Below are positions 9,789 through 62,312 of a stretch of 64,000 bases of DNA, piece by piece (within the stretch, counting starts at the first letter, position 1; every line of letters begins with the position of its first letter). The DNA comes from Thermococcus nautili (GTDB lineage Archaea; Methanobacteriota_B; Thermococci; Thermococcales; Thermococcaceae): positions 1,674,001 to 1,738,000 of the forward strand of contig NZ_CP007264.1 in assembly GCF_000585495.1 (NCBI RefSeq). Reading direction: 5' to 3'. Both the position numbers and the translations under genes were made by a program. Below the pieces are notes generated by a model. That model did no database searches and was not told the DNA's origin. It was given only the letters and a program-made list of their open reading frames with translations.

Positions 9789-10261
9789 CGTGGTTTTTGG
9801 TGGCAATCGTCGTCGTTTTCGGAATTCAGGCGGGCCTCAGGGTGGCCCTTCACACGGACTCGCCCCTCGTTATAGTGGTGAGTGGCTCTATGGAGCCCGT
9901 CTTTTACAGGGGGGACGTCGTTCTCCTCAAGGGCGTTACCAACCCCGACCAGATAAAGGTCGGCGACGTGATAGTTTACAAGCGTCCCGGTTACGAGTAC
10001 CCGATAATTCACCGCGTTCGCTACATCTACACGGTTAAAATCGATGGGAAGCCTGAGAAGTGCTTCGTAACCTGGGGTGACAACAACCCCGTTCCGGACC
10101 CGCCGTACCCAACTTCGGACGGCCTGCTTGAGGTCCAGCTCCCCGACGGCTACATAGCCGGATGCGTGCCGACGTACGCCGTCGAGGCCAAGGCCGAGTT
10201 TGTGTTCCCGAAGATAGGCCTCATCCCGCTCTGGATTCGCAACGCCCTCGGCCTGGGATGA
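9764..10261 (+). CDS. Signal peptidase I, archaeal/SipW type
   Basis: A 165-residue membrane peptidase that removes signal peptides from exported proteins. An N-terminal hydrophobic segment (residues 6-24) is followed by the Ser motif VVSGSMEPVFYRGD near residue 45. The His motif YPIIHRVRYI, which replaces the bacterial Lys, lies near residue 85. A second segment near the C-terminus (FPKIGLIPLWIRNALG) could be membrane associated. It starts inside the DUF531 gene. Its stop codon is overlapped by box C of a predicted C/D sRNA. Confidence 0.92.
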   Translation: MEEWKKEVAWFLVAIVVVFGIQAGLRVALHTDSPLVIVVSGSMEPVFYRGDVVLLKGVTNPDQIKVGDVIVYKRPGYEYPIIHRVRYIYTVKIDGKPEKCFVTWGDNNPVPDPPYPTSDGLLEVQLPDGYIAGCVPTYAVEAKAEFVFPKIGLIPLWIRNALGLG

Positions 10262-10311
10262 TGTGAGGGTAGGTAACTGAGCCGTGATGAGCTAATCGGC
10301 CCCTGACCGCT
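10253..10311 (+). ncRNA. Predicted box C/D sRNA overlapping the signal peptidase stop
   Basis: All four boxes are present in correct order and spacing. Box C is ATGATGT at 10258-10264, then a 12-nt guide, D' CTGA at 10277-10280, a 3-nt spacer, C' GTGATGA at 10284-10290, a 12-nt guide GCTAATCGGCCC, and box D CTGA at 10303-10306. Short G-rich/C-rich flanks could close the terminal stem. Two equal 12-nt guides and a 3-nt D'-C' spacer are typical of compact Thermococcales sRNAs. By the N+5 rule the D guide would direct methylation of the fifth nucleotide of GGGCCGATTAGC; part of this (GATTAGC) recalls 16S rRNA near position 240, from memory only. The last base of box C deviates from consensus. 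Confidence 0.72.
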
Positions 10312-39264: not shown

Positions 39265-39325
39265 AGCCGATGATGGCAACAGGGTAGCTACCGAGTTGAT
39301 GAGGAAGCCGTTCCAGTCTGAGGCT
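39265..39325 (+). ncRNA. Predicted box C/D sRNA
   Basis: Complete C/D architecture with closing stem: AGCC (39265-39268), box C ATGATGG (39270-39276), 14-nt guide, D' CCGA (39291-39294), C' TTGATGA (39296-39302), 15-nt guide, box D CTGA (39318-39321), GGCT (39322-39325) pairing with AGCC. A promoter CTTTATAAG (39236-39244) stands at the right distance upstream. By the N+5 rule the D guide points to the G after ACTG in ACTGGAACGG, and the D' guide to the U after TAGC in TAGCTACCCTG. Box C ends in G and D' is CCGA, both small deviations. The 3' end overlaps the USP stop codon by 2 nt. Confidence 0.8.
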
Positions 39326-42468: not shown

Positions 42469-43427
42469 AACGGCCTGAAGCTTTTGGCAGCCTTTAAGAA
42501 AGGCTGGCGAAGAAGCTTTTGGAAAAAGCTTGACCAAGGAAACTTTGCTTTCGCAAAGTTTCATCAAAGTTTGTGATTCCTCTAACAGGGTGTTTTGAGG
42601 GGTTTGCACTTTTAACGGCTTTTGTAGATTGTGAATTCCCTAATTTTGGAAGCTCTCTCGTGCGGGTTTACCTTTTCTCGCGCTCCAAAGGGGCGCTTTT
42701 AGAGAAAACCCCCTCTTGAGGGCCTTTTAAAGGGAGTTCTCTCAAGAAAATGGCCGTTTAAAAGCGCAAACCTCTTAGAATTTATTTTGAATGAAGAATC
42801 ACGAACCTTGGTCAAACTCTGCGGGACTGTCGTCCCTTGCGTCGAGCAGAGCTCGACGTCGCGCAGGCGAGCAAGCTTTAAGAAAGCTTGACCAAAAAAG
42901 TGCCCTATCTCGCCAACGGGCAAAAAGACAGTTGTGCACTAATTAAGGCGCGATTTTAAAACGAGTTTAACTTCAAAGATACCTTGAGGATTAGTTTCAA
43001 CTTAGTTTTGGCGTCCGAAGGACGCCGTTTGGAGAGTGAAACACTCAACAAAGGGCAAGTTAATAAGAAACTCCACTTTACAATTGTTAAATCTTAGAAC
43101 ATGCACTCGCTCTTCCGCCAGCGCTGAAGCTTTTGGAAAAAGCTTCACCCAAAGCTCGTGATTCCTATTTTGGACTCCTCTGAAATGGAATTTCAAAATC
43201 GAGACAGCAGTTGAAAGTTTGAATTCACACTCCAAGGACTCCTTCACGCGGGTTCCATCTACTCGCGCTCCGAAGGAGCGCAAAAGACGTGAACCCCTTA
43301 TCAGAAGGGCCTTTTAAAGAAATTCACCTCTCCAAAAGAGCAACTCGATAGAGAAATCCACCCGAAGAATGGCCCCTTCAAAAGGGAATCACAAACTTTG
43401 ATGAAACTTTGCCCAGCAAAGTTTCAA
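42469..43427 (-). ncRNA. Large hairpin-rich structured element directly 3' of tRNA-Trp (copy A)
   Basis: No gene is seen here. Read in the tRNA-Trp direction, the element starts 2 nt after CCA with a perfect 10-bp hairpin (43403-43412/43416-43425). It then has a long-range stem GTGATTCC/GGAATCAC (43385-43392 with 43158-43165) that encloses GGGTTC/GAACCC (43250-43255/43291-43296) and a GCGCTCC hairpin (43265-43281). Next come the GAAGCTTTT hairpin (43126-43146), the GGCGTCC hairpin (43010-43026) and conserved single-stranded blocks. A second partial copy of the first domain follows (42573-42802), then a CAGCCTTT hairpin (42488-42506). The order is colinear with copy B at 57153. Whether it acts as RNA or as DNA is not shown. 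Confidence 0.7.
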
Positions 43428-43567
43428 TGGTGGGGGCGCGGGGATTTGAACCCCGGTCCGCGGGTTTCTCCGGGTCAGAGCTCCAAAGGCTCATCCCCAA
43501 TCAGCAAACCCGCAAGTCCTCATACCTCTGGAGCCCGCGATGATGGACCAGGCTACACCACGCCCCC
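43428..43567 (-). tRNA. tRNA-Trp (CCA) with box C/D intron
   Basis: Acceptor GGGGGCG/CGCCCCC, T arm CGGGG-TTCAAAT-CCCCG, encoded CCA, anticodon CCA. Exons are 43528-43567 and 43428-43465; the 62-nt intron 43466-43527 lies between positions 37 and 38. The splice site is a textbook bulge-helix-bulge: CTCC/GGAG 4-bp helix with AGA and AAA bulges. The intron has boxes C (ATGAGGA), D' (CTGA), C' (GGATGAG) and D (CTGA). The D' guide GCGGGTTT pairs with AAACCCGC and points to nt 39; the D guide TGGAGCT pairs with the anticodon region and points to C34. The same guide activity is known for pre-tRNA-Trp introns in Euryarchaeota. Confidence 0.97.
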
Positions 43568-56428: not shown

Positions 56429-57061
56429 ATGTCGTTCAGGGAGAAGTACTCGCGCATTGCCCGGCACTACGAGACCCTTGAGAAACCCCTCGACAGGTTT
56501 TTCTGTCCGCTGAGGAAGAAGGCGGTTTCCTTTGCCGAGGGGAGAACCCTGGAAGTCGGTGTTGGCGTCGGGAAAACGTTGCGCCATTACCCGAAGGACG
56601 TTGAGCTCTGCGCCGTCGATGCCGTTCCCGAGGCCATTGAAATCGCCCGGGAAAAGGCCAGAAGGCTTAACCTGAACGCCTGTTTCGAGGTTGCCGACGT
56701 TGAGAAACTTCCTTTCCCGGATAACAGTTTTGACACCGTTCTGAGCTCCTTCATCTTCTGCACCGTTCCGAACCCCGAGAGGGGAATGAGGGAAATCCTC
56801 CGCGTTTTAAAGCCTGGGGGAAGGGCGATTTTCCTCGAGCACACGAAGAGCGACTCGATTTTGCTCGACTACCTCTTTCTCCTTCCCCTGAAGTTGCCGT
56901 TGAGGCTGCTCCTCGATGACGACCCGCTCAGGGAGACGCATAAACTGGTCTCGAAGCACTTTGAAATCGAGCGCGAGGAGCGCTATTACCGCGGAATCGT
57001 CCGTTTAATCGTCGCGCGGAAGCCCGCTGAGAGTAAAACTTTTAAAGCTCCCTCCCCTTAA
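56429..57061 (+). CDS. Class I SAM-dependent methyltransferase (UbiE-like)
   Basis: A 210-residue methyltransferase: TLEVGVGVGKTLRHYPKDVELCAVDAVPEAIEIAREKARRLNLNACFEVADVEKLPFPDNSFDTVLSSFIFCTVPNPERGMREILRVLKPGGRAIFLEHTKS. Motif I, acidic D of motif II and the LKPGG motif are intact. Substrate unknown; phospholipid or small-molecule methylation is common in this group. Its 3' end holds the tRNA-Gly promoter. Confidence 0.88.
   Translation: MSFREKYSRIARHYETLEKPLDRFFCPLRKKAVSFAEGRTLEVGVGVGKTLRHYPKDVELCAVDAVPEAIEIAREKARRLNLNACFEVADVEKLPFPDNSFDTVLSSFIFCTVPNPERGMREILRVLKPGGRAIFLEHTKSDSILLDYLFLLPLKLPLRLLLDDDPLRETHKLVSKHFEIEREERYYRGIVRLIVARKPAESKTFKAPSP
57037..57047 (+). promoter_or_regulatory. TATA box of tRNA-Gly inside the upstream gene's end
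   Basis: AACTTTTAAAG is 28-38 nt upstream of the tRNA 5' end at 57075, within the last codons of the methyltransferase gene. Confidence 0.55.
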
Positions 57062-57074
57062 GAATAACGGGCGT

Positions 57075-57152
57075 GCGGTGGTAGTCTAGCCTGGTCCAGG
57101 ACACCGGCCTCCCAAGCCGGTGACCCGGGTTCAAATCCCGGCCACCGCACCA
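57075..57152 (+). tRNA. tRNA-Gly (CCC)
   Basis: Acceptor GCGGTGG/CCACCGC, D loop AGCCTGGTCCAG, anticodon stem ACCGGC...GCCGGT with loop CTCCCAA, giving anticodon CCC. T arm CCGGG-TTCAAAT-CCCGG; CCA is encoded (57150-57152). No intron. The structured element copy B starts 2 nt after CCA. Confidence 0.96.
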
Positions 57153-57740
57153 CACAAACTTCGCCTGTGCGAAGTTTGACCAAGGCTCGTAGCTCCTGTT
57201 GGAGGGCTAAATTTCGAGTCATTTCTTATCAACTGGCCCTTTTTGAGTTGGAGAACCTATCGAATTGCTCTTTTACCGTGGGTTTACCTTTAAATCAACG
57301 CCCGAAGGGCGTCAAGGGAGAGTAAACCCCTTTGAGAGGCTTTCTGAGAGAGTTCTCCTTTTGAAAGTGCGATTTATGAGCAAAATCTGCTCTACTTGAG
57401 CCCTCGATCAGGAGCTACTAACTTTTGGTGAAGCTTTTTTCAAAAGCTTCCTGCGCAAGCGCTGGCGGGAGATGAGGTGCCTTTTTAAGAGTGCAGGTTT
57501 TAGAGTGGGTTTCTACTAGAGTTGCTCCTTTTGTGAGTGTTTCTCCCTTTGAAGGCGCCCAAAGGGCGCCGATATGAAGTTGAAACTATCCCCAAGGAGT
57601 TTTGTTGTAGTGTTAAACCTGTATGAACTTGCTTTTTCATTAGTGCTCGACTGTTTTTCTGCTCTTTGGCGAGAAGGGCACTCATTTCGCCAGCCTTTCT
57701 CAAAGGCTGTGGGCAAAGTTTCTTTGGCGAAGCTTGCCTA
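57153..57740 (+). ncRNA. Large hairpin-rich structured element directly 3' of tRNA-Gly (copy B)
   Basis: No gene is seen in this stretch. Elements in order: 10-bp hairpin 57155-57164/57169-57178; long-range stem GTAGCTCCTG (57189-57198) with CAGGAGCTAC (57409-57418); inside it GGAGAAC (57250-57256) with GTTCTCC (57352-57358), GGGTTTAC/GTAAACCC (57280-57287/57322-57329) and hairpin ACGCCC/GGGCGT (57298-57312). Then GAAGCTTTT hairpin (57430-57450), GGCGCCC hairpin (57554-57570), conserved ATTAGTGC and GGCGAGA blocks, and CAGCCTTT hairpin (57691-57709). It is colinear with copy A, and the paired bases differ together. It ends before the promoter of the Xre gene. Confidence 0.72.
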
Positions 57741-62248: not shown

Positions 62249-62312
62249 CACCTCAGGTGGGGATAATGTCATCATCTTGGCATCAGGAGGGATGACACTC
62301 CTCATCGGTTCG
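62249..62312 (-). ncRNA. Possible box C/D sRNA
   Basis: On the minus strand: box C-like CGATGA (62302-62307), a 15-nt guide, D' CTGA (62283-62286), 7-nt spacer, C' ATGATGA (62269-62275), 12-nt guide CATTATCCCCAC, D CTGA (62253-62256). ACC and GGT outside can close the stem. Box C has one deviation. The D guide would pair with GTGGGGATAATG and point to its fifth base. It overlaps the leader of the gene at 61779-62243, so it could be chance or a processed leader. Confidence 0.45.

Follow-up and report, generated by a model that had tools for sequence, protein, structure and literature searches.

Palindromic repeat modules behind tRNA genes of Thermococcus: a probable non-autonomous mobile family and candidate substrate of chromosome inversions

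Introduction

Close relatives within the genus Thermococcus are hard to align with each other, their chromosomes rearranging so often. In the genome paper of T. gammatolerans this plasticity was called "paradoxical", with few IS elements or repeats present and long-range gene order lost faster than in Pyrococcus (PMC2718504), and rearrangement in the face of a scarcity of recognised repeats and IS elements is also termed paradoxical in the available text of a study on T. nautili (PMC5495485). In that text, an inversion that arose in cultures of T. nautili between the tRNA-Gly genes BD01_1557 and BD01_1976 is mapped to a perfectly shared segment of 176 bp (Cossu et al. 2017, PMC5495485), and the tRNA-Leu and tRNA-Thr end points are left unexplained, these two tRNAs being too dissimilar. 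Directly behind BD01_1976, in the window analysed here (a stretch of 64,000 nucleotides of the T. nautili chromosome, to which all positions refer unless they are given as genome positions), lie 590 bp whose nature is the question of the present work. The original prediction for this locus had described one large structured element with covarying stems, present in a second copy near tRNA-Trp, which may be released as an RNA when the tRNA 3' end is cut or may be a tRNA-linked mobile non-coding element.

Organisation of the array behind tRNA-Gly(CCC)

The tRNA gene that anchors the array, tRNA-Gly(CCC), was placed at 57075–57152 on the forward strand by ARAGORN and Rfam, and it was identified as BD01_1976 by means of a primer published as lying "upstream of BD01_1976" (PMC5495485), which has an exact match at 57001–57023. 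The chromosome is taken to be that of T. nautili 30-1, as its tRNA-Leu(CAA), at genome 10012, also agrees with the location published for this strain (PMC9897764). The first hairpin begins 2 nt past the 3' end of this tRNA at 57152, and the region 57153–57740 contains only short, mechanical ORFs (at most 67 aa), none of which is meaningful; both observations agree with the prediction of a gene-free element 2 nt behind the tRNA. All of the stems that had been named could also be located (57155–57164 with 57169–57178, 57189–57196 with 57411–57418, 57280–57287 with 57322–57329, and the GGCGCCC hairpin). However, although the structure is present, it is not a single unit, as the 590 bp consist of two overlapping modules, L and R, each of which also occurs apart from the other.

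Module L (57153–57451, forward strand) has hairpins at its two ends (57155–57178 and 57430–57450), between which lies a long imperfect fold-back with a GC-rich tip. Module R (57430–57723, forward strand), which has the hairpin 57430–57450 in common with L and is followed by a short tail to about 57740, is likewise bounded by a hairpin at either end, and its long irregular fold-back carries the GC-rich tip hairpin GGCGCCCAAAGGGCGCC near 57554–57570 on the same strand. From hairpin to hairpin a module measures about 270–310 bp, and it is approximately its own reverse complement; a search with either module matches the opposite strand at the same place. The loop of the first hairpin holds, in some L modules, two extra hairpins, GTCGAGC..GCTCGAC and GGGAC..GTCCC (loci L033:1760–1836, L042:2000–2066, L007:1830–1880, L090, and L097).

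The copy near tRNA-Trp spans 42539–43425 and is composed of three modules. Behind the intron-containing tRNA-Trp gene (43428–43567, reverse strand; genome 1717428–1717567), module L was found by the L model at 43126–43425 (reverse strand; genome 1717126–1717425) and module R by the R model at 42867–43146 (reverse strand; genome 1716867–1717146). The third module, of the L type, lies at 42539–42824, and since it is nearly palindromic, with matches of 102 and 96 bits on the two strands, its strand is ambiguous.

Occurrence of the modules in Thermococcus and other genomes

The genome searches were carried out with sequence-only models of L and R. Where the prediction had known two copies, the genome of T. 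nautili was found to contain 49 modules in 27 arrays. About 20 of these arrays start 3–15 nt behind the 3' end of a tRNA, mostly in the direction of the tRNA, and one further array is located 125 nt behind tRNA-Gln. At about half of the tRNA genes a module takes up the position immediately 3' of the CCA (one is present within 60 nt of 22 of the 46), and modules rarely do so behind other small-RNA genes, one array lying behind the H/ACA RNA Pab160. The start of another array coincides with the stop codon of a protein gene. Copies are also located between divergent genes. The three C/D box RNAs that Rfam detects in the window, sR36, sR22 and sR55 (10254–10308, 39266–39323, and 62251–62309), have no module behind them.

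In other species, 37 of 45 arrays are located at tRNA 3' ends, the usual gap to the start of the model being 3–7 nt. Of the remaining eight, one (locus L031) lies behind the C/D RNA sR36, and four lie directly behind tRNA 3' halves, three of these beside apparent integrase sequence. Judged by their sequence, the arrays at tRNA 3' halves near integrase-like sequence read as probable attachment sites of integrated elements. At another locus, L019:1500–1575 (genome 1017075–1017145), a tRNA 3' half is followed immediately by a truncated L, probably an attachment-site remnant of an integrated element. A targeting of tRNA genes only was rejected, as the hosts include an H/ACA RNA, a C/D RNA, a protein stop codon and the interior of a gene.

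The L model has matches in 58 of the 61 Thermococcus genomes, each a different species, and homologues of the kind that the prediction had named as a check are present there at many tRNAs. The model is rare in four other genera of the family and has no match in the nine genomes of a sister genus, which is probably Pyrococcus. An exact 27-mer of L (with one N) occurs, among 84,980 species, only in records of Thermococcus or Thermococcaceae. No match to the modules was found among the plasmids of PLSDB or the phages of INPHARED, nor, by exact-pattern search, among the viruses of IMG/VR, and an origin as plasmid or virus cargo was rejected on these grounds. A known RNA family was likewise rejected, as the element has no gathering match in Rfam, the best sub-threshold hit being a chance viral stem-loop (E 0.056). 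No earlier description of this repeat family was found in the open-licence literature, within which it appears to be previously unnamed.

In several genomes a second, GC-rich repeat of about 90 nt ("CTGTACTCTCAAACCCCCG...GTGGGGCTTCGCCCCAC...CCTCCGGGGGGCTAACGCCCCCACACCCCC") is present between the tRNA and a module or between modules; at tRNA-Gln loci it was observed at L011:1840–1935, L016:1800–1885, L031:1368–1495, L090, and L097.

Possible termination signals within the modules

Runs of at least five T are strongly enriched on the sense strand of the modules. There are 67 such runs in L versus 27 ± 5 expected and 71 in R versus 21.5 ± 4 expected, an enrichment of 2.5–3.3-fold, whereas runs of at least five A are far less enriched; at least one T run of this length is carried by 34 of 37 L and 30 of 32 R modules. 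In the array behind tRNA-Gly(CCC), the first T5 tract 3' of the tRNA is at 57240–57244 on the forward strand, and by its sequence and the enrichment it is a putative terminator; further T tracts are present at 57435–57440 and 57482–57486. This pattern suggests that transcripts may end inside the modules.

The modules might on this basis be regarded as being mainly terminators or insulators of tRNA genes, which gene conversion spread since no stable RNA gene can do without one, their mobility being incidental. The T-run enrichment in both L and R, the location behind tRNA, H/ACA and C/D RNA genes, and the single module that in some species occupies precisely the space from tRNA-Gln to the gene convergent with it are all in accordance with such a role. 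However, 24 of the 46 tRNA genes of T. nautili lack a module, up to four modules per array would be excessive for termination, and copies are also found between divergent genes and within a gene. Hence, we consider it doubtful that this is the main function of the modules.

Turnover of modules at orthologous and unrelated loci

Modules are gained, lost or exchanged as whole units. At tRNA-Leu(GAG), the order in T. nautili is tRNA, R, flank, and in a close relative (G031) it is tRNA, L, R, flank; R and 2.3 kb of the flank are 90% identical between the two genomes, and the L of G031 is situated exactly between the CCA and R, where it replaces 19 nt of the leading hairpin of R. The same two genomes differ at tRNA-Val(CAC) and tRNA-Arg(CCT) by L versus R, with flanks that are 95–97% identical, and across species the tRNA-Gln(TTG) locus carries L, L and R, L with the other repeat and a second L, or the other repeat and L.

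Copies are also common to unrelated tRNA loci. L modules that are 90–97% identical were observed at different tRNAs of different species within unrelated flanks; a 90.5% identical L, for example, is present at tRNA-Val(CAC) of one species and tRNA-Gln(TTG) of another, the similarity stopping at the module ends. The nearest neighbour of a module was at a different tRNA in 35 cases versus five at the same tRNA, counting only the tRNA-labelled rows of a list that includes reverse-strand duplicates due to the palindrome. With the nearest relatives at other tRNAs and with L and R exchanged at orthologous tRNAs, simple vertical inheritance together with the tRNA was rejected.

One module interrupts a protein gene. 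In T. nautili (genome 1934849–1935116, outside the window) and one other species (G010), a methyltransferase gene is split in its 5' part by an L-type module some 271 bp long, and the gene is uninterrupted in seven relatives. About 65 bp of the target were lost and no target duplication is present, in which this insertion is unlike most transposons. The SAM-methyltransferase gene of T. nautili (L138:405–1321; genome 1934204–1935120), its 5' part replaced by the module, is possibly a pseudogene or has an altered N-terminus. The genus-wide homologues, the polymorphism at tRNA-Leu(GAG) and the insertion in a gene that is intact elsewhere bear out that part of the prediction which took the element to be tRNA-linked, mobile and non-coding.

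It could alternatively be proposed that the repeat is ancient and static, that it was present ancestrally at most tRNAs, and that all differences are due to deletion and gene conversion, with no new insertion. Some degradation and exchange of this kind does occur, as seen from a deletion derivative at tRNA-Gly(GCC) of one genome (G018), from mosaic copies within one genome, and from module-like remnants behind tRNA-Gly(GCC) and tRNA-Asp(GTC), the latter with a partial L only; a loss at tRNA-Leu(GAG) is also formally possible. Nevertheless, the methyltransferase insertion and the clean presence or absence of L at tRNA-Leu(GAG) require some gain of whole modules, and an entirely static history is in our view improbable.

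Palindromy and base pairing

Compared with dinucleotide shuffles, the fold of the 590 bp has a z-score of −6.95 on the sense and −6.14 on the antisense strand. Over 37 L modules, 81% of the cells are paired, versus at most 55% when the partners are slid, and 58 of 112 pairs are altered on both sides, a number reached in none of 500 shuffles (47.6 ± 3.4), which do not preserve relatedness. The paired changes that had been noted between two copies are real. RNAalifold over whole modules yielded few pairs. Template-switch correction of imperfect palindromes can also yield covariation in stems.

The expectation for an RNA, that G-U pairs are tolerated and A-C pairs are not, was not borne out in a comparison of pairs picked by their Watson-Crick consensus. 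The ratio of G-U to A-C on the sense strand is about 1.5–1.9, and as this strand is rich in T and G, composition alone gives 1.47 for L and 1.72 for R. At 85 °C the element folds with −0.04 to −0.06 kcal/nt, versus −0.11 for tRNA. Because the G-U to A-C ratio shows no strand preference beyond base composition and the fold at 85 °C is weak, the covariation describes a fold-back element and not necessarily an RNA, and neither a free functional RNA nor the predicted selection for an RNA fold is supported. That the modules are structured tRNA trailers, freed by the tRNase Z cut at the tRNA 3' end and kept for their fold, is very improbable, since the strong fold and covariation, the T and G excess of the sense strand and the somewhat better sense fold of L (z −6.4 versus −5.4, ahead in 27 of 37 modules) are set against a near-palindrome in which both strands fold, pair counts as predicted by base composition, marginal stability at 85 °C, covariation that template switching can mimic, the swapping of L and R at orthologous tRNAs, a module within a gene, and closest relatives that are mostly behind another tRNA.

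Involvement in chromosome rearrangements

The loci of tRNA-Gly(CCC) and tRNA-Gly(TCC) are identical over 57112–57287 (forward strand; 176 bp) except for position 57198, and this is the published crossover segment (PMC5495485), of which 135 of 176 bp belong to module L. The crossover of one published inversion fell within a stretch of which three quarters are module L. At position 57198 there is a G here and a T in the tRNA-Gly(TCC) copy; a sequencing error in BD01_1976 was corrected in the same study (PMC5495485), and the corrected base may be this one. The modules are not the only substrate of inversions, as three of the four published inversions of T. nautili used other repeats (PMC5495485).

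All tRNA neighbourhoods were also compared for synteny between one pair of genomes, T. nautili and G031. Module-bearing tRNAs had lost their downstream flank in 11 of 25 cases and tRNAs without a module in none of 17 (p = 0.0012), although some of these breaks could be large insertions and not rearrangements; when tandem tRNAs were merged, the numbers were 9 of 21 versus none of 16 (p = 0.005). Upstream breaks were alike in both groups (4 of 25 with a module, 3 of 17 without). Several of the lost flanks were found behind other module-bearing tRNAs, that of Gly(CCC) behind Pro(CGG), Gly(TCC) behind His(GTG), Pro(CGG) behind Gly(TCC) and Thr(GGT) behind Met. As conserved flanks are exchanged between different tRNAs, these observations point to the modules and not to the tRNA sequence, and the modules are recombination sites.

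Repeats confined to a few dozen fixed and dispersed sites would offer few breakpoints and yet lead to strong scrambling, which, judging from this one genome pair, would fit the paradox described above. Whether the tRNA-3'-end-anchored mobile palindromes, which occur throughout Thermococcus and were not found in the sister genus (probably Pyrococcus), are also the main hidden substrate of its frequent long-range inversions is a question on which we consider the odds to be even. If so, the paradox of the scrambled genomes would be resolved, and inversion end points at pairs of unrelated tRNA genes would be explained.

Origin and spread of the modules

Based upon these results, we conclude, with a probability of about 0.7, that the 590 bp behind tRNA-Gly(CCC) are an array of two modules, L and R, from a family of palindromic, MITE-like repeats that is non-autonomous, mobile at tRNA 3' slots and recombinogenic. 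The modules would be moved or copied by host or mobile-element activity at tRNA 3' ends, perhaps by tyrosine integrases such as Int-pTN3, or the copies would undergo ectopic recombination and gene conversion with one another; gene conversion among existing copies could account for much of the apparent movement. In the published work a tRNA-Leu x tRNA-Thr substrate failed to recombine with Int-pTN3. The loci that were read contain neither a transposase nor a partner element that shares the module ends. Modules may be tolerated behind tRNA genes because they supply their own terminator tracts on the sense strand. Since the copies are long enough (identical over more than 100 bp in the published cases), dispersed and present in both orientations, they would serve as substrate for many of the large inversions by which the chromosomes of Thermococcus are scrambled. 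Found throughout the genus at half of the tRNA genes, such a repeat is a concrete and testable rearrangement substrate, and it may explain the fast shuffling of these genomes.

Comparison with known elements

The modules resemble MITEs, including those of archaea, in being short, non-coding and multicopy, in their inverted-repeat symmetry and in their insertion polymorphism; they are well below 600 bp, and the 49 dispersed copies come with both occupied and empty sites. As to terminal inverted repeats, a module has a hairpin at either end and approximates its reverse complement over its whole length, a simple pair of such repeats being absent. They differ from MITEs in the tandem arrangement with a shared hairpin, in the anchoring at tRNA 3' ends, in the loss of target sequence without duplication at the sole clean insertion, and in having no known autonomous partner in the loci read. 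The ERIC/IRU and REP/BIME sequences of bacteria are likewise palindromes of intergenic DNA, able to fold on either strand and often located near gene 3' ends; by their description, they are set apart by their hosts, and the Thermococcus modules are 2–10 times longer, tRNA-anchored and tied to chromosome inversions. Large non-coding RNAs such as OLE, GOLLD and ROOL also comprise hundreds of nucleotides with covarying stems, but the modules match no Rfam family, are strand-symmetric, dispersed and multicopy, and fold weakly at growth temperature.

Integrated elements of the SSV and pT26-2 type likewise use tRNA 3' ends, and some arrays lie behind tRNA 3' halves near integrase-like sequence; in contrast to such elements, the modules carry neither an integrase nor an att-like copy of a tRNA, and they persist when the element is absent. 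Among the inversions described in connection with Int-pTN3 (PMC5495485), the one between two tRNA-Gly genes has its crossover in 57112–57287, which is mostly module L and which the available text of that study reads as tRNA paralogy together with "strictly conserved sequences immediately following", a repeat family not figuring in that text. Lastly, the TRE elements of Dictyostelium and the Ty elements of yeast likewise insert safely beside tRNA genes, but they are autonomous retroelements, whereas no ORF or reverse transcriptase was seen in the Thermococcus modules. The modules would be an archaeal counterpart of such elements with safe landing sites in tRNA flanks, possibly one that carries the terminator of its host gene.
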